Source of the DNA: a virus
Length of the DNA: 23,873 nt
IMG/VR virus record: IMGVR_UViG_3300037246_000118
Coordinates: 1 to 23,873 of that record
Strand: one strand, 5' to 3'
Shown here: piece by piece, positions 2,291 to 23,277 of the stretch
Numbering within the stretch: the stretch's first letter is position 1
Layout: each line of letters opens with the position of its first letter
Notes under the pieces: generated by a model
Told to the model about the DNA's origin: nothing
Database searches by the model: none
What the model saw: only the letters and a program-made list of their open reading frames with translations
Program-made: the position numbers and the translations under genes

Positions 2291-4446
2291 TTTTCCGGCC
2301 TGATATACATATCAATGTAGGTTCCGCCTCCAATCGTATCTTCCCCAACAATCTGCGTCTCATGTTCATTCGGATCTACGCCACCCGTTCGCTCTATCGT
2401 CAGGTACATTTCATCACCGTTTCCTGCGTTCGGAACGATCGTTGGGATCGGAACAAGGTTCATCGTGAATGTCACCGGAGTGCTGGTCCCGGAAGTCTGG
2501 GTGTCGTCAATGGCTAGCTGCGCGTCACTGGTAGGATTTATGAGTCTATTCGGACCCATACGCAATCGTACGGTAAACCCATTATCATTTGTCAAGAGGG
2601 TGAACTTGACTTTGACTATGACAGTATCGTTCAAGGTGGCGAATACGTTTGTTCCATCGGCAAACTCATCGAACTCGACTAGCGTATCCGGGATTTCAAC
2701 CTCCGCGTTTCTCGGTTTTGCATCTACGGTCGTGTGGGCACCAGCAATCGGATTCAGAATTTGATGAAAGGTCTCTGTGACCGCGAAGATGGTGGATTGT
2801 GTCCCATCATCCGTAATTTCGACTCCCGTGGCGTTTCGGATGTAGTCCAGATACGACTGAGTTCTCGTAGCTCCAGTTGCGATGACGATCCCGTCATTGC
2901 TGGAGGTGTCGATGGTGTTCATCGAAAGCACTGGATCCTCGGCAGTTGAGCCGATCGTGATCCCATCCGTACAGTTCATGATGTGATTCACGGAGAACTT
3001 GTTCCTCTTTCCGCTATCCGTGTAAGGGTAGGTGCAGTTGGCGAAGCGGTTTCCGGTGATTACGTTGTCTTCTCCGTCCGGCTCAATCTCTACGCCACGG
3101 TTCTGGTCGTTGAACAAGCAACCAGTTACGATGTTATTGTCAGCAACCCCTGAGCCTGACTGGCGAATCAGAACCCCCTCTGTGCCGCCAGAACTCATCA
3201 TGAACGTGCAATTAGATATGGTGTTATCACGTCCCTGGCAATCTATACCGCGAGCATTGACTCCTGTTCCACTGAAGTAGCAGTTCGTAATCGTGCAGTT
3301 GTGTCCGGACTGGTCGATTGGAGATGCGGCCAACTTTTGATCGAGAAGGATACCGACCTGGATGTTGCTAAATTCGTTCATGTCAGAGAACGTGCAGTCG
3401 CTGATGCTGATCTGGCCTGCAGCGTAGATGCCAGCGGACGGGCTAACATCCCTACCAAAGTCGTTGAACCTGCAGCCACGGATATAGACGGACGTATTGG
3501 AACTGTTCGGATCGACAATCTTGATGCTGTCCCTGGAACATCCGTCGAACACGCACGCATCAATCCAGCAGTTCTCGATGTTATCCATGTAAAGCATGGG
3601 TCCAATCGAGTCGCCGAAGAAGCAATTCACGAACCGGACGTACGAAACATTCTCTGGGATGCTGACCATCCCATCGCCAGTAAATGACTGTTGCGATGAG
3701 TTGCCATTGAAGATCACGTTGTCCAGGATGATGTTCGCGCTGATCCCGGTCCCGAGGTTGTGACCGATGATCATGATCTCTGATTCCAGATCAGCGTGAG
3801 CAAACAATGTCGCGCCCTGGCCCATGATCCGGAAGTTCCCACCGACCGCTCCGCCCGGTTCCGCGTAATACGCAGCCAAGATGGTTGTTTCCACGATGTA
3901 GGTAGCGCCAGGAGTGAGCATGATGGTGCCGCCGCCAGCGTCCTCAACTTCCTTGATCGCTTCCTGGATTGCAGCACCAGTCAGAATCGGGACCGTCACG
4001 AAAAAGGGATCTTCGAAAGAAGCTCCGGAGATGATGTTCAGGAAGATCGCAGTCGGATCAGGTGACGCGGGCACTGCCGTGCCGGATGAAAAGTTCTTCA
4101 ACGTAACCAGCGTGTTGGGTGCCGCAGGGGCAGAGTCTCCATCTACCGTGGCGTACCACGGGTCAGTGGATCCGCCCGTGAGCTTCACGCGCTTGCCATC
4201 CGTGAAATAGGATGCGTAGTCTCCTATTACAGTTACTTCCGTGTCGCTTGTTCGCGATACCGTTGCGCCCACTGTGAGATCCAGCCACTCCGGATCCTCG
4301 TACCAACGGCGCACCGCACCCATGTTGGCACGCGCCGCGTTGTTCACATCCGACCGATTCATGCCTTCCTTCCAACCACCCTCATCGGCTGGAAAGTTGT
4401 TGGCAGCGTCAGTCTTCTCCCATTCTGCTACTTCGCGTGTGGCCAT
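2287..4446 (-). CDS. Tailspike with right-handed beta-helix (pectate-lyase-like) domain, 719 aa
   Basis: Residues 1-60 form the shared anchor (EGMNRSDVNNAARANM, then EWLD). From about residue 152 there is an IQEAIKEVEDAGGGTIML segment followed by GATYIV, the usual opening of a pectate-lyase-like beta-helix. It is followed to about residue 545 by many short rungs such as ITNCYFSGTGV, ISNCTFM and ITGNRFANCTY, each with the N-C/T-F pattern of parallel beta-helix coils. The last 170 residues look like a beta-sandwich trimerisation or binding domain. Family knowledge suggests surface-polysaccharide binding, often with cleavage; I cannot pick catalytic residues, so enzymatic activity is unproven. 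A longer frame begins with TTG at 4449, but I chose the ATG at 4446, which overlaps the stop of the 1440-residue gene (TGATG) and has GAGG about eight bases upstream. The gene directly follows the ejection-protein block, where T7 has its fibre gene 17. Confidence 0.88.
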   Translation of the reverse strand: MATREVAEWEKTDAANNFPADEGGWKEGMNRSDVNNAARANMGAVRRWYEDPEWLDLTVGATVSRTSDTEVTVIGDYASYFTDGKRVKLTGGSTDPWYATVDGDSAPAAPNTLVTLKNFSSGTAVPASPDPTAIFLNIISGASFEDPFFVTVPILTGAAIQEAIKEVEDAGGGTIMLTPGATYIVETTILAAYYAEPGGAVGGNFRIMGQGATLFAHADLESEIMIIGHNLGTGISANIILDNVIFNGNSSQQSFTGDGMVSIPENVSYVRFVNCFFGDSIGPMLYMDNIENCWIDACVFDGCSRDSIKIVDPNSSNTSVYIRGCRFNDFGRDVSPSAGIYAAGQISISDCTFSDMNEFSNIQVGILLDQKLAASPIDQSGHNCTITNCYFSGTGVNARGIDCQGRDNTISNCTFMMSSGGTEGVLIRQSGSGVADNNIVTGCLFNDQNRGVEIEPDGEDNVITGNRFANCTYPYTDSGKRNKFSVNHIMNCTDGITIGSTAEDPVLSMNTIDTSSNDGIVIATGATRTQSYLDYIRNATGVEITDDGTQSTIFAVTETFHQILNPIAGAHTTVDAKPRNAEVEIPDTLVEFDEFADGTNVFATLNDTVIVKVKFTLLTNDNGFTVRLRMGPNRLINPTSDAQLAIDDTQTSGTSTPVTFTMNLVPIPTIVPNAGNGDEMYLTIERTGGVDPNEHETQIVGEDTIGGGTYIDMYIRPEK

Positions 4447-7400
4447 CAACTAGCCCTCTTCAGTCGCTCTTGTTCCTTGGACCTCTCCTTGGACCTCTCC
4501 TTGAACCTCTTCTTGAACTCTTCTGCCATATCATTCAGCTTCTTCATAATACCGTTCCGCATTGCTTCCACTCTGTTGATAGCATGGTGGCGCTCTCGCG
4601 GAGTGGCTGTTGGCATCGCCACGCCACGCCTGATCAGGTCGATCTCTCGGTTCATCATCTGCAGCTTCCGGTTGGCACGGTCGAATCCAGGAGCCATCGC
4701 GATCATCGCCTGTTGATCTGGGTCCATCATCATCTCTTTCGCCATCTCGATGTCGCCCTGCTTTGCCCGGTGTCGCATCGTGTTGTACGACTGCGTGAAC
4801 TCTTCCATGTTCAGGTAGAAATCGGCGGTGTTCTTGTCGTACTTCCCAGCCTCGCTGTAGACACGTCGGACCATGGGTACGTCATCCCATCCGAGAGCGG
4901 GACCACCAGGGAACATGGCGAGGTCGGTCAACTGAAGCGCCATGCTCGCCCAGTTGCCGAACACGCCTCGGAGCAATGCCTCTGCCCTGGCAGGAGACCG
5001 TGCGGCACCGAGGAACTCGGCATCCTTCAGCACTTCACCGTATGCCTTCATCGTCCTGGACTGACCGGAACGCGCACGGTTCCAGTCCTGCTCGTCCGTC
5101 ATGCCCATCGTCTCGATCGGAGATCCGGTGAAAAGGATCCGGTTCATCGCCTGCTCCATCATCACGTCAATCCCTGCCGGGAGAGGCATCGGCAGTCCCT
5201 TGTGCGCAGTGTTGATGTTGAAGTTGTGAGCGGCGATCTGCATCAGATCGAACAGCGTCTCTTTGTCGAACGTGTCTCCCTTATACATCGACTCGGCGAA
5301 TTCCTCGCCCATCGAGCCGATCATCCCCACCTCCCACAGCTTCGGCATGTGCCAGTGACGGAACTTCGTGATCTCACCAGTGTCGTTGTCCCATGTGGTC
5401 GGGATGTAGAAGTGCCAGTACGCGGTGGTCGCCCACTTCGGCAGGTTCAGGAAATCCACCTGCTGCCGTCCGTCTTCATCGAGCAGGTGCTTGTACTTCT
5501 CGGACATATCTCGATTGATTCCGTACAGCACGACCGAGGACACGCCGACCAATCCCATCTTCAACCCAGAAGCCATCTTCCCGTGCGGGTCACGGAACAC
5601 AGCGCGGTATCCACGGTCTGAGCCAGCAAGCATGGCGTTGAAGAAAGGAACCGTGTCGCCCATGAACTTGGTGATCTGCGGACCATGCGTGAAGCCGAAG
5701 TTGATCTTGTCGCCATGCACTCCCGTAGACTGACCACCACCTCGAACACGGAAGTCGGTGGACACCTCGCGTCCAGAGAAAACAGCTTCAATCATGCTTG
5801 CGGGTCGTAGCTTATTCCCCTCTCCGAGAATTCCCTTCTCGCGTGCGCGGAGTGCTTCTCCAACGCGAGGACCGAGTTCGATCGCTCGCCCGATGTCAGA
5901 CATGAACCGAACGAGATCGCCTGGGCCGAACACCATCCCCTTCGGATTCAGTATCCCCTCTGATCTCTGAGCTTCACGTCGCAGCCTCTTTCGAGACATA
6001 GCGATGTTGTCTCGAATGGGAGAGCCACCGAGACCGTTCGCCATCAGTTGATTGAACTCAGGAGAATCATTCCAGACGTGCTTCAGACCACGGAGAGAAT
6101 TGGTGATGTTCTTGTTCCCTGTGCGGGTCATGATCAGCGCCATCGCGGGGTCACGGATGAAGTTGCCGAAGATAAAGCTGGGGTCGAGAGTGATGGCTGC
6201 CTGCTTGAAGTCCTTGAAGGTCGCCATCCACCTACCAACAAGGTCTACGCGACTGGACGGATCCAGTTGCTCGAACGCACGGTAGAGTACCGGGTCCATC
6301 ACCTCGTAGTATTCCGGCTTGCCGTTACGCAAGAACGAAATGATGTTGTCCCCGTACGGGCGACCAGCACCGATGAAGAACGCAGCTCGCTCGATCGAAC
6401 CGGGCATGTTGTCCAGCCAGTCCATGTGTTCAGCGGCTTCTTCCTCAGTGAGTTTCTTATTCTCCTTGATCTCCTTCTTCATTGCCCTTCTGAGCTGATC
6501 ACGTCCTGCAACAATCCGCTTGCTGTCAGGCTTCAGCTTCTTCAGGAATCCGCCTGCCGCGAGCAATTGGTCGGCTGCATCTCTGGTGAACTTGTTGTAG
6601 AGGATGGCCCTGGCCGTATCCTGCGCACCACGGATGAAGTTTCCGTACTCATCGCGAACCTGTCGCAGACTACCGTGCAGCTTTCGAACGCCGAATGCGT
6701 TCATCAGCTTGTCCTGAGTCCGGTGACGTCCAGTCCTAGCGATGTCCTGGACACGGGCCATGCTCCACCCGTACTCGCTCCGCTTCCATGCTCCAACCTG
6801 TTCGGCAGTGAAGAAGTCCATCTCAATCCCGAGACGTACGGTCGTTGCGTTGAACTCCTTCATCTCTTCGTACACTTTTCTGAACTCTGGATTCTCCAGC
6901 TTCACTCCACGTTCGATCCTATCCAGGTCCCACACCTTTTCGCGAGTTTTTAGATTCGCGATCTCTTCTGGCGTTGACTGCCTGATTTTCCCAGTCTTCA
7001 TGTCGATCGTCTGGTTGATCAGCTCTCGCGCCTGAACAGCTCCACCGAACTCGAAGAAGTCGTCTTCGTATTGCCGATTCTTTTTGAAGATCGGCTTCAG
7101 AATGTCGCCCATTCCCTTGCCACGGAACTCCAGGATCCTATGTCCAGGGTTCAGAGGGTCAGCGACCAGTTCGAGATGACCCTTCGTGACCATGCGGTCT
7201 TGCATCTCTGCCATACCGAGAAGTGACCGCGCACGCTTCCAGAGACTGAAGTTGTTGTCCATGTTCCCAGTCTCTTTGTCTGCCCACAAGAATCCGTGCT
7301 GTTGATCCAGGTACTCCTCACGCCTCGCGTCCATCTTTGAACTAACACGCTGCTCCGCTGCATCCTGCGGACCTACCGGGACCCTTTCGTCTGGTTGCCC

Positions 7401-8768
7401 CCGACCGCCTTCCACCGGAGGATCCCCCGTTCCTCCAGCTTCTTCGGTCGGGGGCGAGACCTTTTCCAGTTTCCCTGCATCGTCCCCTGCCTTCACACCT
7501 GCAGCGCCCTCGATCTCTGCAATCGCAGCGCTCTCTTCTTCGGTCAGAGATTCCTTTTTCTTCGCAACACCATATCTCTTGATATCGTTTTCCTTCTGGC
7601 GAATCTGCTGCTCCGTCTTGAGGTACAGATCCGGATTCTCCATCACGTCCGGATCCTGCAGCTTCTCTCGGAGCGCTTTGATCTGGTGCTTGATCCTGAC
7701 CACAACCGGGTCAGGAGGAAGCGCACCGCGACTTCGCATGAGAGCTGCACGCTCCTGCTGGAGCTTGTTCAGTGTCGTCTGGTGCTTTTCGACGTTCTCT
7801 CCACCGGCTTCCTGCTCTCTCGAAAGTCGCGACTCTCCCTCTCGAATGAAGATCGACAGCTCGCGTTCACGGCGAGTAGGATTCGCCGCTTCGGGAACTG
7901 AATTATTGTCAGCGACCACCTCTGTCTGTGCCTTCTCTGAACCGAACTTCTCTGTCGCTACGTCCAGGACCCTCTCGCCTTCCATCTTCCCTGCAATCGC
8001 AGCATCCACTTCCGCCTGGACTTTTCCCTTCATGTCAACAGGCTTCGCGTGAAGCGCAGCGAGAATCGCCATGGTCAGTCCGTGAGCGACACGTTCTTCC
8101 GGATCCAGATCTTCAGGAGTCATCTGGTATGCAACACCACCGAGAACAGATGCCCTGGCCGCTCGACTGGTGTTGTGCATCACCCCGAACAGCGCACCAA
8201 ACGCAGCTTCCTTGGATGCCGCCTTCATCGCATCCTGGAATCCCTGGTCGGCAGCAGAGAGACCTCCGAACGTGCCGAACGTGAGCATCGGAACGAGGTA
8301 CTGAGCTGCCTTGGCAGATAGGTGTGCAGCTTTAGCGCCAACACCTACGGCACCCATAGTGGCCGCGTAAACTGGCAACGACACTGAGAGGTTCCCCAGT
8401 ATCTGCATACCTAGTTCTGCGTAAGTTCGATCTTCAGGTGGCGTGGCGTCTTCAGCAAGCTCTTCGGACAACCCTCGAAGGTATTGGCCTGCCGCCGAGT
8501 CACCGTCTACCAATTCAGCGACGTTCGCAGCCATGTGCGCAAATTCACCTGCACCCTGAGAAAGCCCGCGCTGGTAGGCGTCACTCATGTCACCGCCGAA
8601 CCATTCGGTATCGCTCTCGGAGCTTACGCGACCCAACAATTCGTTCTGCTGCTCACGGGTCAGATCTCCGAATCCGCTAGGATCCGCGCCGGAGAGCATC
8701 GAGCGCTGGTCTTCCGGCTGTGCATTCCGGAAGTCGCGGGACTGAACAATTTGCTGTAGGTCTGCCAT
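4446..8768 (-). CDS. Giant internal virion / DNA-ejection protein, polyvalent-type, 1440 aa
   Basis: This is the largest gene. The N-terminus (FRNAQPEDQRSML, then LTREQQNELLGRV) resembles the start of other giant podovirus internal proteins. Residues about 115-215 are Ala/Gly-rich and hydrophobic and could insert in membrane. Residues about 290-420 are charged and helical, followed by a Pro/Gly linker near 440-475. Around residue 860 a LDPSFIFGNFIRDPAMAL segment resembles the LPD38-type domain of phage polyvalent proteins; this assignment is from memory and moderate in confidence. The C-terminus is very basic with KERS repeats. I see no lytic transglycosylase motif like that of T7 gp16, although length (gp16 is about 1300) and position just before the spike gene fit that role: a protein packaged in the head and injected with DNA. 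The ATG overlaps the upstream stop as TAATG; the Shine-Dalgarno is weak, so coupling probably drives translation. Confidence 0.75.
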   Translation of the reverse strand: MADLQQIVQSRDFRNAQPEDQRSMLSGADPSGFGDLTREQQNELLGRVSSESDTEWFGGDMSDAYQRGLSQGAGEFAHMAANVAELVDGDSAAGQYLRGLSEELAEDATPPEDRTYAELGMQILGNLSVSLPVYAATMGAVGVGAKAAHLSAKAAQYLVPMLTFGTFGGLSAADQGFQDAMKAASKEAAFGALFGVMHNTSRAARASVLGGVAYQMTPEDLDPEERVAHGLTMAILAALHAKPVDMKGKVQAEVDAAIAGKMEGERVLDVATEKFGSEKAQTEVVADNNSVPEAANPTRRERELSIFIREGESRLSREQEAGGENVEKHQTTLNKLQQERAALMRSRGALPPDPVVVRIKHQIKALREKLQDPDVMENPDLYLKTEQQIRQKENDIKRYGVAKKKESLTEEESAAIAEIEGAAGVKAGDDAGKLEKVSPPTEEAGGTGDPPVEGGRGQPDERVPVGPQDAAEQRVSSKMDARREEYLDQQHGFLWADKETGNMDNNFSLWKRARSLLGMAEMQDRMVTKGHLELVADPLNPGHRILEFRGKGMGDILKPIFKKNRQYEDDFFEFGGAVQARELINQTIDMKTGKIRQSTPEEIANLKTREKVWDLDRIERGVKLENPEFRKVYEEMKEFNATTVRLGIEMDFFTAEQVGAWKRSEYGWSMARVQDIARTGRHRTQDKLMNAFGVRKLHGSLRQVRDEYGNFIRGAQDTARAILYNKFTRDAADQLLAAGGFLKKLKPDSKRIVAGRDQLRRAMKKEIKENKKLTEEEAAEHMDWLDNMPGSIERAAFFIGAGRPYGDNIISFLRNGKPEYYEVMDPVLYRAFEQLDPSSRVDLVGRWMATFKDFKQAAITLDPSFIFGNFIRDPAMALIMTRTGNKNITNSLRGLKHVWNDSPEFNQLMANGLGGSPIRDNIAMSRKRLRREAQRSEGILNPKGMVFGPGDLVRFMSDIGRAIELGPRVGEALRAREKGILGEGNKLRPASMIEAVFSGREVSTDFRVRGGGQSTGVHGDKINFGFTHGPQITKFMGDTVPFFNAMLAGSDRGYRAVFRDPHGKMASGLKMGLVGVSSVVLYGINRDMSEKYKHLLDEDGRQQVDFLNLPKWATTAYWHFYIPTTWDNDTGEITKFRHWHMPKLWEVGMIGSMGEEFAESMYKGDTFDKETLFDLMQIAAHNFNINTAHKGLPMPLPAGIDVMMEQAMNRILFTGSPIETMGMTDEQDWNRARSGQSRTMKAYGEVLKDAEFLGAARSPARAEALLRGVFGNWASMALQLTDLAMFPGGPALGWDDVPMVRRVYSEAGKYDKNTADFYLNMEEFTQSYNTMRHRAKQGDIEMAKEMMMDPDQQAMIAMAPGFDRANRKLQMMNREIDLIRRGVAMPTATPRERHHAINRVEAMRNGIMKKLNDMAEEFKKRFKERSKERSKEQERLKRAS
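4477..4512 (-). repeat. 12-bp tandem repeat, about three copies, encoding K-E-R-S
   Basis: TTGGACCTCTCC occurs at 4477-4488 and 4489-4500, followed by a diverged copy TTGAACCTCTTC at 4501-4512. On the minus strand it encodes the basic tail RFKERSKERSKEQ of the 1440-residue protein. Copy number could vary between relatives without breaking the frame. Confidence 0.8.
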
Positions 8769-10201
8769 TAGAGCCCGAGTCGCCTGCCTTCAGCAGCCTG
8801 CTGTCGCAGCCGCCTGTCGATAACCTGTGACTTCCTGCGCTTCTCTTCCAGGTATGCACCCTGGTCTCCGGCAACTCCACTCGGCTTCCCTTCTCCCATT
8901 GCTGACATGGGATCACTTACATCAACACCCGGCCTCTTACTGTGGTAATCCGTCATGTACCCGCGCTCACTAGACGCCCAATTCCATGCGTCTCCAGCCC
9001 ATCCAGCGATAGTGTCCATGCCAGAATACGGATTATCAACGAGGTTAGTTATCCCGGACCCATCGCCAGCCATGCTGCTCATCAGACCAGAGCGTGCGGC
9101 CTGTTCCGGACCCGCCGTCGTCGTGCCAACGGAACCAGGAGCCACTGCACCAGGAGCGGCGGCGGCGGCAGGAACCGGCTTCGTCTCGTCCGGAGCAAAC
9201 GAGTGGTACGGTCCTGCCGGATCGAAGTCCAGAGGATTCTGTACGCCGATCAGACCGAGACCGGCTGCGACGTCCTTCACCTTGTCGCTGCTCATGTCCT
9301 CGCGTTTAATCTCTGCCTTGTCGATCGCTAACTCAATAGACCTTGCAGCTTCAGGGGAAGGCTCCGGCGCTCCCTCTCCGAACATGCGTTCGGCAACGAT
9401 GTCCTTGTCGGATGCGGTTACTTTCTCTCCGGTATCCGGATCCGTAACCGTCGTCTCGCCAGACAGATCCATGTTTCCTGGACCATAATTCTCTACGCCC
9501 TTCTTGCCGGAAGCGACGTCGGCTGCCAATCGCTGCGCCAGGAGTCCATGCTCAGGGCTCCAGAGAAGTTCCAGATAGTCCCACGCGTTCTCGTCCATGA
9601 ACGCAACGTCAACCGGCTCACCTTTATACAGTCCGTCTTTCTGATCCTTCCTCAAGCTGGTGTACCAGTTGTTGGCAGATCCGATCTTTCTCATGGTTTC
9701 TGCGCTCAACTCGCCTTTCGCAGAGGCCCTATTCCCAGACTTGATCGCCTCCAGTTGCTTCGCGTATCCGAATTCCTTCTCAGCGACACGCATCATTCGC
9801 GCTTCTTTCGATGCGGGAGTGTCAGCCGTCAGGAATGCGTGTGCGTTCTGCGGATTCGCGAGCGCACCCTGCAGCATCATCCTCTTCTCCGGATCGGTTT
9901 CTGTTTCCAATTGGCTCTGAATGTGTCGAGAAAACTTTCGAGTCCGCATTCGCTTCCTGGCTTCTCCGGGTGCGGCTGCGGCACGAACGGCGGCACGTTC
10001 CATCGAAGACATATCGCCACCGCCAGCGGGGATCCCGGCGAGACCACCCATGACCGCAGTGAACGCACCCATGATTCCCTGGAACTTCTCCTGCGTGGAA
10101 TCACTCCCCCACCAGTCCGAGAACCCAGGATCAGAATCAGAATCCTTCGGGACCGTCGGCATGGGAGCTGTCGTTTTCGACTTCGAAGCAAGATCAGCCA
10201 T
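8768..10201 (-). CDS. Putative internal virion / ejection protein, 477 aa
   Basis: No family is recognised with certainty. The N-terminal part holds a Gly/Ala-rich hydrophobic stretch (IMGAFTAVMGGLAGIPAGGG, about residues 43-62) followed by a basic helical region with KRMRTRKFSRH. The middle is charged and helical. An Ala/Pro-rich linker (VPAAAAAPGAVAPGSVG, about residues 341-357) precedes a Gly/Ser-rich region, and the C-terminus is strongly basic (KRRKSQVIDRRLRQQ). That mix resembles podovirus ejection proteins, and it sits between the Ala-rich gene and the 1440-residue gene, where T7 has gene 15. The ATG at 10201 is preceded by AGGAGGAG and overlaps the stop of the upstream gene by eight bases. 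The role is inferred from position and composition; no enzymatic motif is visible. Confidence 0.65.
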   Translation of the reverse strand: MADLASKSKTTAPMPTVPKDSDSDPGFSDWWGSDSTQEKFQGIMGAFTAVMGGLAGIPAGGGDMSSMERAAVRAAAAPGEARKRMRTRKFSRHIQSQLETETDPEKRMMLQGALANPQNAHAFLTADTPASKEARMMRVAEKEFGYAKQLEAIKSGNRASAKGELSAETMRKIGSANNWYTSLRKDQKDGLYKGEPVDVAFMDENAWDYLELLWSPEHGLLAQRLAADVASGKKGVENYGPGNMDLSGETTVTDPDTGEKVTASDKDIVAERMFGEGAPEPSPEAARSIELAIDKAEIKREDMSSDKVKDVAAGLGLIGVQNPLDFDPAGPYHSFAPDETKPVPAAAAAPGAVAPGSVGTTTAGPEQAARSGLMSSMAGDGSGITNLVDNPYSGMDTIAGWAGDAWNWASSERGYMTDYHSKRPGVDVSDPMSAMGEGKPSGVAGDQGAYLEEKRRKSQVIDRRLRQQAAEGRRLGL

Positions 10202-10982
10202 AGAAGGCTCCTCCTGACGATAGGTAGCTGGACATCAGATTTTCCGAGAAGAGACGCTGCGCATCAGCATTACCCGATCGGTACGGCGCGGAAGCCGGAG
10301 GCTGTCCAGCGCCGAACTGGACTGGACCCTGAGCCGGTGCTTGCTGCTGATCGTCGCCACCCATGCTTTCGCCCATCGAAGAGAATCCCTTGGAGGCAGC
10401 CTGAATCAACTGTTTCTGCATCGAGGATCCGGTCTTACTTACGGTGGTTCCTCCTGGCGGAGCGCCGGAACCGGCAAGACCGCCGGAACCTGTAACACCT
10501 GCTGGAGTTGAGCCGAAGCCTGACCCGGTGAACGGGGCAGCGACTTCACCCATGAGAGGACCGCCCTCCGCGAACGGCAGTACGCTGGGAGCCTGGGTAC
10601 TCATCTGCCCCCCGACCCCACCAAGCTGAGACATGAGCCCACCGCCTTCTGCCAGTGCCGGAGCCACCTCCGCAGCGATAGGTGCAACTTCTCCTGCCGC
10701 TGCTCCTACTTCAGCGATCAACGGGGCTGCTGTTGCCGCCGTCTCCGCGATGGCCGGGGCTGCTGCCGCTATGGACGGAGCTACTCCAGCGATTGCGGGG
10801 GCTGCTCCAGCGATTGCGGGAACGGCACCCGCTATTGCCGGGGCTGCTGCCGCGATGGCGGGTACAGCTGCCGAAATGGCCGGGGCTGCTGCCGCCACGG
10901 CGGGTGCCGCAGCGCTGACTGCAGCGGTAACCGCGGGTACGGCTGCTGCGATAGCGGGAGCTGCTCCAGCAAGAATCGGCAT
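10194..10982 (-). CDS. Ala-rich heptad-repeat protein, putative ejection/internal virion protein, 262 aa
   Basis: Residues 9-82 consist of ten heptads of the form P-A-I-A-x-A-x (for example PAIAGAV, PAIAGAA, PSIAAAA), broken once by SAAA at residues 23-26. A further Ala/Glu segment reaches about residue 112. The rest is Gly/Ser/Pro-rich with an SMQKQLIQAASKGFSSMGES helix, then Gln/Pro-rich sequence, and a C-terminus containing RLFSENLMSSYLSSGG. The repeat has almost no charge, so it could form a hydrophobic helix bundle or a membrane-crossing segment. Its place between two putative ejection genes fits a protein that helps DNA cross the envelope, but this is inference. GGAGG lies upstream of the ATG at 982 of the 10-kb block (10982), which supports the start. 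The GC-rich repeat also opens a mirror frame on the plus strand, which I do not consider coding. Confidence 0.7.
   Translation of the reverse strand: MPILAGAAPAIAAAVPAVTAAVSAAAPAVAAAAPAISAAVPAIAAAAPAIAGAVPAIAGAAPAIAGVAPSIAAAAPAIAETAATAAPLIAEVGAAAGEVAPIAAEVAPALAEGGGLMSQLGGVGGQMSTQAPSVLPFAEGGPLMGEVAAPFTGSGFGSTPAGVTGSGGLAGSGAPPGGTTVSKTGSSMQKQLIQAASKGFSSMGESMGGDDQQQAPAQGPVQFGAGQPPASAPYRSGNADAQRLFSENLMSSYLSSGGAFYG
10737..10958 (-). repeat. 21-bp degenerate tandem repeat encoding ten P-A-I-A heptads
   Basis: Repeated units such as GGGGCTGCTCCAGCGATTGC (plus strand) occur near 10776-10822, with diverged copies around them. The period is 21 bases, one heptad per unit, interrupted once by 12 bases (SAAA). 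Confidence 0.8.
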
Positions 10983-11005
10983 TACGGACCTCCTTCACCT
11001 GACAT
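10982..11005 (-). other. Eight-codon linker frame MSGEGGP-stop formed by a 12-bp direct repeat
   Basis: The stop of the 269-residue gene overlaps an ATG (TAATG at 11007-11003). That frame reads seven residues and stops in a second TAATG that contains the start of the Ala-rich gene. TTCACCTGACAT occurs at 10994-11005 and again at 11008-11019, so the frame seems to come from duplication of the end of the upstream gene. The Shine-Dalgarno (GGAGG) of the Ala-rich gene lies inside it. A translated peptide is possible but unlikely; a spacer or re-initiation bridge is the simpler reading. Confidence 0.4.
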
Positions 11006-11814
11006 TATTCACCTGACATCATGGCCCCGGCCGCCGGACCGATGAACGAACCAGCCATGCCAGCAATTTGCGCCGGACCGACCTTCGACGTGCCCTTACT
11101 CACACCGTACCCACCGGGCTGGTTGATCAGACCCTGGTACAGACCCAGACTCTCGTAGGGCTCGTACTGCTCGAAGTTGAACCGGTTCACCATATCCGAG
11201 AGCTGCAACTGCGCGTACTGGAACTCGTCCGCACCCGCAGCGCTCAACGCTGCCTGATCCGTGAACTGCGCACCGCGTAGTGAGGGTGCCTGTCCAGCAG
11301 CCGTACCCATGCGACCGCGCTCTGACTCGTACGCGCCTCCATATAGGTTCGAGTACATCTGCGACAGCTCTTGGCCGAGACCACGCTGGCTGGCTGCCAT
11401 CGCAGAGCCCTCTGCGTTTCCCGCATCGTTCGGACCCGCAGAGCGTCCTGCTCCACCGAACCGGCTCGCGATCTGCGGCACGACCGATCGGTTGTAGTCC
11501 CTGCTGATGTCCTGTCCCGCCGCCTCGCCCACGCCGCGCAAATACGGGTTCGAATCCACGTTCAGGTACTGGCCAGACGTCGTACGCTGGTTCTCTGCGA
11601 GTGCCGAATTGAGACCTGGAGACCCAGCCGTCACCATGTCAGCGACGTTCTGGTTCGCCATGGTCTGCCACGGATTACGTTGTGCAACCGTCGATTCGGG
11701 GAAATATTCAAGCTCCTGGCTCAGAAGTTTGTCGGCTTCATCGTAGAGAGTCTTGAAACGCTTCCCCTGTGGTGCCCACGGAATACTTGAAGTGGTCTCT
11801 GATCCAGTTCCCAT
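11005..11814 (-). CDS. Putative internal virion protein, 269 aa
   Basis: The protein begins with a Ser/Thr-rich stretch and PWAPQGKRFKTLYDEADKLL. It continues with Gln/Asn/Gly-rich helical sequence (NPYLRGVGEAAGQDISRDYN, then SRFGGAGRSAGPNDAGNAEG) and ends in a short hydrophobic Ala/Gly segment (PAQIAGMAGSFIGPAAGAMM). This architecture of an amphipathic helical body plus a small hydrophobic tail is common in a conserved podovirus protein encoded between the GNAT-like gene and the larger ejection genes, comparable in place to T7 gene 14. I do not recognise a named domain. AGGAG lies eight bases before the ATG, and the start overlaps the upstream stop as TAATG. Function is inferred mainly from context; a tail-tube or fibre-attachment role is an alternative. 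Confidence 0.65.
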   Translation of the reverse strand: MGTGSETTSSIPWAPQGKRFKTLYDEADKLLSQELEYFPESTVAQRNPWQTMANQNVADMVTAGSPGLNSALAENQRTTSGQYLNVDSNPYLRGVGEAAGQDISRDYNRSVVPQIASRFGGAGRSAGPNDAGNAEGSAMAASQRGLGQELSQMYSNLYGGAYESERGRMGTAAGQAPSLRGAQFTDQAALSAAGADEFQYAQLQLSDMVNRFNFEQYEPYESLGLYQGLINQPGGYGVSKGTSKVGPAQIAGMAGSFIGPAAGAMMSGE

Positions 11815-12293
11815 TACAAAATCTCCTTCTCAAAGACCGAATGGCTGAATTCGTAGCCTTCCGGAAGCACTCTCCCCCAACCGTTCCTGCCTTCGACCAT
11901 CACCGATGCGCATATTCCCAGCATTGCGAACTCTTCGATCTTCTCCATCAGCGGCTCCATCAAGCCCATCTTCAATCCGCCCATGCCACCCGCGAGCATC
12001 ACCTTCATGCAACGCCGACCGCTGATCCACTCGACGATTTCCGTTACTACCACTCCTACAATCTCTTTCTTGTCCTGCACCGCCACGAACAACTGCGCCT
12101 TGTCGTTATCCAGCAAGTGGAATATCTGCTCAATCTTGATGCGACCATGACTCTTCTCAATCGTTGGACCGAGATGACGCCTGATCTCAGCATCAATCAG
12201 CGGATTTCGCTGATCTTTCGAGACGACGACTGCTTCGACTTCACCCAGAGAAGGTGAGGTAGAAGACTCGATCTGTGAGTGCGCTGCTGTCAT
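11814..12293 (-). CDS. GNAT-fold-like internal virion protein (T7 gp13-like position), 159 aa
   Basis: The central strand pattern (AQLFVAVQDKKEIVGVVVTEI, about residues 67-87) followed by a Gly-rich loop (MLAGGMGG) and a C-terminal VEGRNGWGRVLPEGYEFSHSVFEKEI looks like the late strands of a GNAT acetyltransferase fold. Many podoviruses carry such a protein in front of their ejection genes, among them T7 gp13, where it is thought to be structural. The Gly-rich loop lacks a clear Q/R-x-x-G-x-G/A acetyl-CoA motif (GGMGGLKMG is seen), so enzymatic activity is doubtful. The annotated ATG overlaps the previous gene by 53 bases and has only a weak AAGG upstream at long distance. The first 20 residues are low in structure, so the true start could be slightly further in. 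Confidence 0.6.
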   Translation of the reverse strand: MTAAHSQIESSTSPSLGEVEAVVVSKDQRNPLIDAEIRRHLGPTIEKSHGRIKIEQIFHLLDNDKAQLFVAVQDKKEIVGVVVTEIVEWISGRRCMKVMLAGGMGGLKMGLMEPLMEKIEEFAMLGICASVMVEGRNGWGRVLPEGYEFSHSVFEKEIL

Positions 12294-17262: not shown

Positions 17263-18341
17263 TAAATCATCTCCTCAAAGAGTCGCGCAGCGTCCCTCTC
17301 GTCCCCTGTTGCCTTCAGACGATCAAGATTTTTCTGGGACTGTTTTCTCGCAACCTCCCCAGAGCCCTTTCTGGCACTGGACCGAAGTACATGCTTCGGC
17401 TTTGGTAGGCTGCGAAGTTTGTCGATTTTTTTGGGGGTCTGATTTTTGAGCTTCCGATACTGCGATGCTTCGTATGCAACCAGCAAGTAGCGATGGTCGG
17501 TGATGCCGTTGATCTCTTCCTGCGAAAATCCTGCTTCCGACAGGAAACTCTGTGTATCGCTCATGGCTGTCTGAGCAACAGCGGGATCCTTCCACTCCGG
17601 CTTTTTCGTATGCAGAGTGACCATCTCCTTCTGACGAGTTTCGAGATTTACAGCCTGTGCCTCACCAGCGCGTTGGTGTTCGAGACCTCGCATCTTCTCG
17701 ATCGCTCTCTGGATAAGCTGACCTCGCTCTTGCTGCTTCGATTTCATGATTAGGAACTGCTGCGGATCCTCAACTTCTAGCGTTTTCCAGTTGATGTCCG
17801 AGAATTCCTGCTGCGTGACGTCCAGGAGAACCTGCGTCTGGATCGCCATCTCCTTGACTGTGGCGTCCGTCGTCACGCGCAATTGGGCGGCTTCCGCTTG
17901 CAGCGCCGTCCGCTCTACGGTGAGTTCATCGTGGCTCTTCTGTATTACGGCTGAATTCTTGTAGGTGTCGAGGGCCTTTGCGAGCGGGACGGAAGCACCG
18001 TTCGGGCCTTCTACTTCGAGGTGGTTTAGGAGTTCCTTCTCATCGACTTCGAACATCTTCGCGAGGTCTGACATCGTGCGTACTTCTTCGTCGCCAACCT
18101 CTGCAGACTCCGGATCTTTCTCTTCGCCTTCCGGATCTTTCTCTTCGCCCTCTTCGCCTTCTTCCTTCGCAGCGATAGGCTCTTCGCCTTCCTCGTCTTC
18201 TGGAAGCTCTACCTTCGGCTCTTCTTCGCTGGTTTCCCGAGCATCCTCAGGATTGGCGGGCGGCACGGGTGAGTCGTCTAGTTGTTTTTCTAGCCGACCG
18301 AGAATATCAAGTTCCGGCGTACCCGCTGTCGGGGCTGCCAT
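17262..18341 (-). CDS. Capsid scaffolding protein, 359 aa
   Basis: The gene lies directly before the capsid gene and overlaps it at TAATG. Residues about 30-90 are extremely acidic (Glu/Asp/Pro-rich with EGEEKDPE repeats), residues about 95-300 are predicted helical or coiled-coil with many Gln and Glu, and the C-terminus is strongly basic (KNQTPKKIDKLRSLPKPKHV, then SSARKGSGEVARKQSQKN). An acidic N-terminus, helical middle and basic capsid-binding tail are typical of podovirus scaffolds. It would guide procapsid assembly and leave before or during packaging. The start overlaps the upstream gene by 35 bases with GGAG close to the ATG. No protease motif is visible, so release by exit rather than self-cleavage is likely, as in P22. 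Confidence 0.85.
   Translation of the reverse strand: MAAPTAGTPELDILGRLEKQLDDSPVPPANPEDARETSEEEPKVELPEDEEGEEPIAAKEEGEEGEEKDPEGEEKDPESAEVGDEEVRTMSDLAKMFEVDEKELLNHLEVEGPNGASVPLAKALDTYKNSAVIQKSHDELTVERTALQAEAAQLRVTTDATVKEMAIQTQVLLDVTQQEFSDINWKTLEVEDPQQFLIMKSKQQERGQLIQRAIEKMRGLEHQRAGEAQAVNLETRQKEMVTLHTKKPEWKDPAVAQTAMSDTQSFLSEAGFSQEEINGITDHRYLLVAYEASQYRKLKNQTPKKIDKLRSLPKPKHVLRSSARKGSGEVARKQSQKNLDRLKATGDERDAARLFEEMI
18109..18150 (-). repeat. 21-bp tandem duplication in the scaffold gene
   Basis: TCCGGATCTTTCTCTTCGCC followed by T or C occurs at 18109-18129 and 18130-18150, with one difference. It doubles G-E-E-K-D-P-E in the acidic region of the scaffold and keeps the frame. Confidence 0.85.
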
Positions 18342-22974: not shown

Positions 22975-23277
22975 TCAAAACACCTTCTCCTCGTCGAGCT
23001 TGTGGTCGCCGCACCAGTCAGTCAGCTTCATCGCAGGCCAACCGTCGAGCGTCGGCGCGTGCTTGCGACACCTACCGACCTTCACCTCACCCTGCTCGGG
23101 CACCTTCTCGACGAAGTGCATACACGTCGAACACTTCATACCCTTGCTGCGGTGCTTCCAGTTGTCTTCGGATCCTATCACGACGGTGCCTCCTGGAAGC
23201 GTACGGTCTTCGGATCCTATCACGACGGTGCCTGGAAGCGTACGGCCGCTACCTTCGGTGCTCTTTTGCTGGCCCAT
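22975..23277 (-). CDS. Cys/His-rich (probable zinc-binding) small protein, 100 aa
   Basis: The C-terminal half has C49, C52, H54, C70, H73, C89 and H92 in the order CSTCMHF, then GRCRKHAP, then GWPAMKLTDWCGDHK. This C..C.H / C..H / DWCG arrangement recurs in small uncharacterised phage proteins and probably holds one zinc ion. The N-terminal 38 residues contain a tandem duplication: RTLPGTVVIGSED followed by RTLPGGTVVIGSED. The ATG overlaps the stop of the Acb2-like gene as TAATG, so the two are translated together. No catalytic motif is visible; nucleic-acid or protein binding is possible. The adjacency to a counter-defence gene makes an accessory role worth considering, but that is inference. 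Confidence 0.7.
   Translation of the reverse strand: MGQQKSTEGSGRTLPGTVVIGSEDRTLPGGTVVIGSEDNWKHRSKGMKCSTCMHFVEKVPEQGEVKVGRCRKHAPTLDGWPAMKLTDWCGDHKLDEEKVF
23165..23245 (-). repeat. 42/39-bp tandem duplication inside the Cys/His gene
   Basis: Copy 1 is 23165-23206 (42 bp) and copy 2 is 23207-23245 (39 bp). They are identical except for one 3-base indel that adds a Gly. Such near identity, including third codon positions, shows a recent event. Confidence 0.9.

Follow-up and report, generated by a model that had tools for sequence, protein, structure and literature searches.

A proline-led heptad array in a small gene of a putative phage ejection cassette

The repeat gene and its surroundings

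The window analysed here is a stretch of 23,873 nucleotides, positions 1 to 23,873 of IMG/VR virus record IMGVR_UViG_3300037246_000118, a linear virus DNA of 23.9 kb. A gene on its minus strand (10194..10982) encodes a 262-aa protein and holds ten P-A-[I/V]-A-x-A-x-like units (10737..10958, minus strand; residues 9–82). The gene is called from its open reading frame, from a Shine-Dalgarno-like AAGGAG 7 nt 5' of the ATG (10990..10995, minus strand), and from same-strand counterparts in the same slot of two other contigs, L084 and L008. A scan of 10000–11900 for promoters and terminators gave nothing above its own shuffles.

The ten copies start at residues 9, 16, 27, 34, 41, 48, 55, 62, 69, and 76. 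Their register is broken once, by an 11-residue step between copies 2 and 3, and the last eight are consecutive. A degraded form of the pattern continues past the array to about residue 110: prolines in the first 115 residues stand at 2, 9, 16, 27, 34, 41, 48, 55, 62, 69, 76, 87, 101, and 108, with steps of 7,7,11,7,7,7,7,7,7,7,11,14,7. None of 20000 shuffles of residues 1–110 limited its proline steps to 7, 11, and 14, a step set read off the data before the shuffle test. Lag-7 self-identity over residues 5–88 is 0.62, against 0.33 in shuffled sequence (z 7.6; reached by 0 of 2000 shuffles). Residues 1–79 contain no D, E, K, R, or H; the first charged residue is number 80. The first-pass annotation had described a ten-copy P-A-I-A-like heptad at 10737–10958 as a nearly uncharged seven-residue period with proline at a fixed place. 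Its coordinates are exact and the uncharged period is borne out, with the amendments that one step is of 11 residues and that the pattern runs on to about residue 110.

Such heptads are rare but not confined to phages. A two-unit motif scan of viral_contigs gave 76 stretches. Among motif-bearing ORFs of 167 loci plus the window, the longest proline-led heptad run is 8 in the window (also in L081, the record from which the window comes); no other locus exceeds 5 (L127 and L125, of other make-up). A three-unit motif in genome_contigs gave 24 stretches, with PA[IV]A runs of 6 (L180), 5 (L176, L195), 4 (L185, L189, L192), and 3 in the other 18; many of these sit in Pro/Ala-rich or charged frames. 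The window array is the longest among those scanned. A 209-aa ORF of one motif-matched viral contig (L160:430-1059, minus strand) starts MPPAVALAIPAIAGAGASAAGG, like the start of the window gene. In the titles and abstracts of the open-licence literature searched, a proline-heptad repeat in an ejection protein is undescribed.

The gene order downstream of the capsid gene (PHROG 1328) is SU10_adaptor (PF24175), a virion structural protein (PHROG 3287), and then proteins of 159, 269, 262, 477, and 1440 aa. The names terminase, portal, and scaffold are given here from gene order and size alone, the 438-aa one having no Pfam match. The 159-aa gene (11814..12293, minus strand) has only weak PHROG matches of unknown function; genes in a similar place in L197 and L198 are annotated as acetyltransferase. 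The 477-aa gene (8768..10201, minus strand), of gp15 type by size and order only, has no informative PHROG or Pfam match, and phage tblastn and the viral_contigs scan returned nothing useful for it. The 1440-aa protein (4446..8768, minus strand) carries LPD38 (PF18857, E 2.7e-23) and is gp16-type by size and order only; nothing useful came from its viral_contigs scan and no match from PDB.

A one-sided, helix-like stripe in the slot proteins

Hydrophobicity in the N-terminal stretch has the period expected of an amphipathic helix. The Fourier peak over residues 5–88 lies at 102°/residue and exceeds all 4000 shuffles. In the slot counterparts it lies at 97–98° (L084) and 98° (L008), reached by 0 of 4000 shuffles each, and in all three proteins the period persists with Ile/Leu/Val/Met/Phe alone. 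The remainder of the window protein has no helical period (the helix band is reached in 32% of shuffles), nor has that of L008 (22%); in that of L084 the signal is weak (1.5%). The control set comprised 80 uncharged stretches of at least 40 residues from 4095 ORFs, of which 5 pass 0.01 in the 95–106° band, a band fixed after data inspection. These five are the three slot proteins and the tails of the proteins of L004 and L087 that resemble the 269-aa neighbour (269-like proteins; these two are identical). Most 269-like tails have no helical period, which counts against reading the stretch as an ejection helix.

The prolines follow the same geometry. All 14 prolines of residues 1–112 face away from the stripe (at 102°, their cosines run from −0.73 to −0.95), and so does Gly in the window protein (mean cosine −0.84). 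In L084 and L008, the residues opposite the stripe are Ser (−0.82, −0.73) and Glu (−0.73, −0.88), with Thr uneven (−0.69, −0.26) and Gly weak (−0.19, −0.37). By the coiled-coil rule, an 11-residue step is a heptad plus four, a stutter that keeps the helical stripe. The first-pass annotation had suggested an extended or stacked structure; a non-helical form of this kind is not supported, as steps of 7 and 11 residues preserve the stripe of an alpha-helix and every proline falls on the far face. A canonical charged heptad coiled coil was also rejected: the Ile/Val spacing fits a stripe, but the stretch is uncharged and has recurrent prolines. The stretch at residues 1–110 (10653..10982, minus strand) is thus, by its one-sided period near 100°/residue and the placing of its prolines, a predicted uncharged amphipathic helix.

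Structure prediction by AF2 was of low confidence. Mean pLDDT for the 262-aa protein is 48.9, which counts against the ejection-helix reading, and a second model was also poor (37.1). At this low confidence, helices are drawn at 3–31, 40–64, 69–95, and 103–125. A C-terminal helix at 237–257 lies in a block with pLDDT up to 79, and coincides with a conserved tail (residues 236–262; 10197..10277, minus strand) recognised by its similarity to L084.

Two full-length counterparts occupy the same slot, of 258 aa (L084) and 311 aa (L008). The slot proteins share an MPxLxG start (first 12 residues, window vs L084: 1.35% of shuffles) and an uncharged, small-residue, striped N-terminus. The C-end is common to the window protein and L084: over the last 27 aa the local score is 66, against 18.5 ± 3.9 in shuffles, and 0 of 2000 shuffles reach it. 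Over the last 60 aa the comparison with L008 is borderline (1.4% of shuffles), and the C-ends of L084 and L008 show no significant similarity to each other (40%). The period of both counterparts differs from the 102° of the window protein, their polar face is made of Ser, Glu, and Thr rather than Pro, and both lack the heptad. L083, with a 269-like protein of 71% identity, shows its slot gene over 36 initial residues only, and these are small-residue rich and without the heptad; L082 shows none of it. Several loci represent the same contig: L006, L085, and L171 are one, as are L084, L170, and L204, and the slot and 269-like proteins of these two contigs are identical and were counted once; L004 and L086 are likewise one contig, as are L008, L088, and L172. 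A viral_contigs search with alignment A7 returned only L084's contig, and one of genome_contigs with alignment A4 gave 144 stretches, with no relative among them.

The first-pass annotation took relatives devoid of periodicity in this gene as evidence against its reading, and that is not what the relatives show. Both full-length counterparts are strongly periodic, but helically so (about 3.7 residues) and without the proline heptad. Since the helical period is shared and the heptad is, among these slot proteins, present in that of the window only, the heptad looks like a lineage-specific dress of a shared, predicted amphipathic helix. As far as sampled, in collections that may omit records very near the window, it appears to be lineage-specific.

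Proline disfavours helix, and the stretch might instead serve only as a flexible, Pro/Ala-rich spacer, a disordered or polyproline-like linker between the two ends of a structural protein. The low AF2 confidence is consistent with this, as are the cellular sequences in which Pro/Ala-rich heptads of four to six units often lie in Pro/Ala-rich stretches (L176, L180, L185, L189, L192, L195). A linker would not, however, be expected to have a strong helical period, with every proline on a single face and the phase kept across steps of 11 residues, and homologous N-termini without the proline heptad have the same helical stripe. The stretch is moreover the N-end of the protein rather than a segment between two recognised domains. 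The linker explanation is accordingly judged unlikely.

The stretch could also consist of several short, proline-kinked TM helices (multi-pass, as predicted for T7 gp14), or be a tape-measure-like hydrophobic segment, rather than an amphipathic helix of a surface or ring. In the window protein, 35 windows of 21 residues reach KD 1.6, AF2 draws four helices, and the portion of PMC8954989 consulted gives the number of predicted TM helices in gp14-like proteins as four or five. The counterparts weakly match tail tape measures in PHROG (best 7.7e-5), matches that count against the ejection reading and are probably due to composition. Against multiple passes, the first 79 residues offer no charged or clearly polar loops, hydrophobicity is one-sided, and the counterparts reach KD 1.6 in only 0 (L084) and 3 (L008) windows. 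The hydrophobicity of the N-terminal stretch is marginal (maximum KD over 21 residues 1.82), a point that weighs against an ejection helix. Multiple TM helices or a tape-measure segment seem doubtful, and an amphipathic helix remains the preferred structure.

The array at the DNA level

The array is a tandem repeat in DNA as well as in protein. TRF finds a period of 21 (7.2 copies, 71% matches) and one of 84 (1.9 copies). The ten 21-nt units are 43–90% identical in pairs, those starting at residues 27/41 and 55/62 being the most alike (90%). Elsewhere in the window there is an exact 21-bp tandem duplication at 18109–18149, within the acidic region of the scaffold-like gene, and a 42-bp unit repeated twice at 23164–23245 (93% matches).

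These features might suggest a 21-bp repeat recently expanded by slippage, without selected function. Codons for the same residue agree slightly more often in the array than window codon use predicts (0.395 vs 0.317). Codon positions 1, 2, and 3, however, agree at 84, 81, and 36% among the ten units; the third-position divergence speaks against recent slippage, and the array peptide is retained while its DNA drifted. Relatives in the same slot, moreover, have N-termini that look unrelated yet are equally periodic, and the slippage explanation is very improbable. The related claim of the first-pass annotation, that the 21-bp repeat makes copy number changeable, is weakly supported at a third-position agreement of just 36%; the searches turned up no relative carrying this array, and hence none for a comparison of heptad copy number.

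The plus strand carries a 127-aa ORF (10633–11016) that mirrors the array and reads GATPAIAGAAPAIAG...; read in another frame, the reverse complement of the 21-nt unit is almost the unit itself, hence the like peptide. Despite the similar peptides from both strands, it is scarcely credible that this ORF is coding or that the array is a nucleic-acid element: the minus strand of the window is the one that holds the long ORFs nearby and matches the slot counterparts, and the array RNA has a less stable fold than its synonymous resamples (z +1.81), so that RNA structure was rejected.

The ejection cassette and a proposed role

The link to DNA ejection runs through the neighbour upstream. Alignments A1 and A2, tblastn, and the PHROG matches of homologs relate the 269-aa protein (11005..11814, minus strand) distantly to members of PHROG 4287, "DNA ejection protein". 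Its relatives include proteins at 44–77% identity (L004/L087, L006/L084, L008, L082, L083) and at 25–27% (phages Mel-JY34, Venkman, and Kuura). Six homologs match PHROG 4287 (L089, L090, L091, L198, L200, L202), as do gp21 and gp22 of SU10 (Kuravirus), so that the 269-aa protein is related to the SU10 pair distantly, through intermediate phages. The 269-like copies of L004, L006, and L008 do not match PHROG 4287 and the window copy matches no PHROG, which leaves the link to SU10 indirect and counts against the ejection reading. A direct SU10 profile search gave nothing with A2, and with a wider profile only gp22 at 4.3 bits, mostly bias; PDB gave nothing with A2.

The SU10 set lies in the same kind of cassette, followed by proteins of 551 and 1473 aa, and its presence in virions is known from peptide counts (portion of PMC4281155 consulted). 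Through the link of the 269-aa neighbour to PHROG 4287 and SU10, the 262-aa gene is placed in an ejection cassette by position, and packaging of its product in the virion may be inferred; the placing in an ejection region by the first-pass annotation agrees with this. The product itself gives no informative match in PHROG (0 families; none to a PHROG 4287 profile), Pfam, phage tblastn, viral_contigs, or PDB (best E 0.21), which counts against the ejection reading. A phmmer comparison of the 262-, 477-, and 1440-aa proteins with SU10 gp20–24 found no match. A match to PHROG 2534, "released from the phage upon host infection", comes from L198, where it is made by the gene after the slot (32531–33898; E 2e-11).

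The cassette resembles that of phages with gp14-type proteins (T7 gp14, DEV gp73, N4 gp52; Schitoviridae), in which a small gene lies beside larger gp15/gp16-type genes. The agreement is one of size and order only (262, 477, and 1440 aa, against sizes listed in the part of PMC8954989 consulted), and the 269-aa neighbour competes with the 262-aa protein for the gp14-type role. Searches of PHROG, Pfam, phage tblastn, and PDB found no similarity of the 262-aa protein to gp14-type proteins; within that group identity is very low, according to the same part of PMC8954989. In the excerpts consulted, T7 gp14 and DEV gp73 form helical channels with pore activity (PMC8954989, PMC10925440), and N4 gp52 has a hydrophobic part (1–68), an amphipathic helix (69–131), a predicted nonamer, and channel activity (PMC12633501). 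The DEV gp73 core is strongly basic (PMC10925440, part consulted), unlike the uncharged stretch of the window protein, and a proline heptad is unmentioned for gp14-type proteins in the text consulted.

Outside phages, the nearest likeness is to the 11-mers of perilipin: a long, weakly polar amphipathic helix, with the 11/3-type stripe seen in the relatives of the window protein. Apolipoproteins and ALPS motifs are further examples of long, repetitive amphipathic helices in lipid-surface proteins, the prolines of apolipoproteins standing between helical units. Unlike the window protein, these are eukaryotic, and they are unrelated to it.

Long uncharged segments recur in this region of the cassette. 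When 1162 non-overlapping ORFs from the scanned loci are ranked by uncharged run, 7 of the top 8 (6 distinct proteins) lie here, the exception being rank 1, an ORF of L201; the non-overlap filter dropped the L084 slot ORF from this ranking. In loci with no visible small-residue gene next, the run lies on the 269-like C-end and measures 82 (L091), 80 (L039, next gene unexamined), 78 (L004/L087), 70 (L202), 48 (L200), or 39 residues (L089). Where such a next gene follows, the longest 269-like run is 19–28 (L008, the window, L090, L083, L084, L198). The split is clean in 12 cases, though drawn after the pattern was seen; in L090 and L198 the next gene is only weakly of the small-residue kind and only a putative homolog of the window gene, and that of L200 has a short (15-residue) uncharged run. 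Excluded from the comparison of tails, which was also chosen after the data were seen, were L199 for its weak match (E 3e-6) and, for want of a profile match, L197 and L201, although a Gly/Ala tail is present in L197. An uncharged C-end in the form of a Gly/Ala zipper occurs on the 269-like or PHROG 4287 proteins of L004, L087, L089, L200, and L202 and on SU10 gp22 (L203), and is lacking in loci where a small-residue gene of its own comes next. In the window lineage, by contrast, the long uncharged segment lies in a separate gene, is longer, and carries the proline heptad; SU10 has no direct match to the window proteins.

Because the uncharged run is found either on the 269-like C-end or in the next gene, it is read as one movable module: the sequences suggest that a single envelope-active module may be carried on a gp22-like protein or in a gene of its own. 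A bolder version, which is decidedly speculative, would have an envelope-penetrating helical module move from an SU10-gp22-like C-end to its own gene, extend to about 110 residues, and be rewritten as a proline heptad whose outward prolines bend every subunit alike, giving sequence-coded curvature and an uncharged, low-friction wall for a DNA channel.

The broad idea of the first-pass annotation, an envelope or channel part, stays the best reading. More specifically, it is proposed, with roughly even prospects of being right, that the 262-aa protein is a small ejection protein with an envelope-binding or -penetrating amphipathic N-terminus, working like T7 gp14, DEV gp73, and N4 gp52. The first ~110 residues would form an uncharged, small-residue amphipathic alpha-helix or chain of helices with a single Ile/Val/Leu stripe and a polar face bearing a proline every seven residues, 4-residue stutters keeping the stripe in phase. 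The middle of the protein (residues ~111 to 235) looks flexible, and docking on a partner is the probable task of the conserved C-terminal helix. The protein would be packaged and would leave the virion early. Its N-terminal helices might then put the stripe into lipid or against each other, with the Pro/Gly/Ala face towards water, and so help to form or seat a channel across the host envelope, as an outer-membrane component of gp14 type would. The regular outward prolines could bend every helix gently and alike, which would suit the curved wall of an oligomer.

Envelope crossing by short-tailed phages is solved for few systems, and sequence comparison seldom picks out its small membrane component. 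Where such searches fail, this component may be recognised by combining helical periodicity with slot position. The very regular, rare repeat described here belongs to a known kind of machine, as the form that one lineage gives to an amphipathic module. If the proline heptad truly curves an uncharged helix, it would provide a simple, testable rule for the walls of helical channels.
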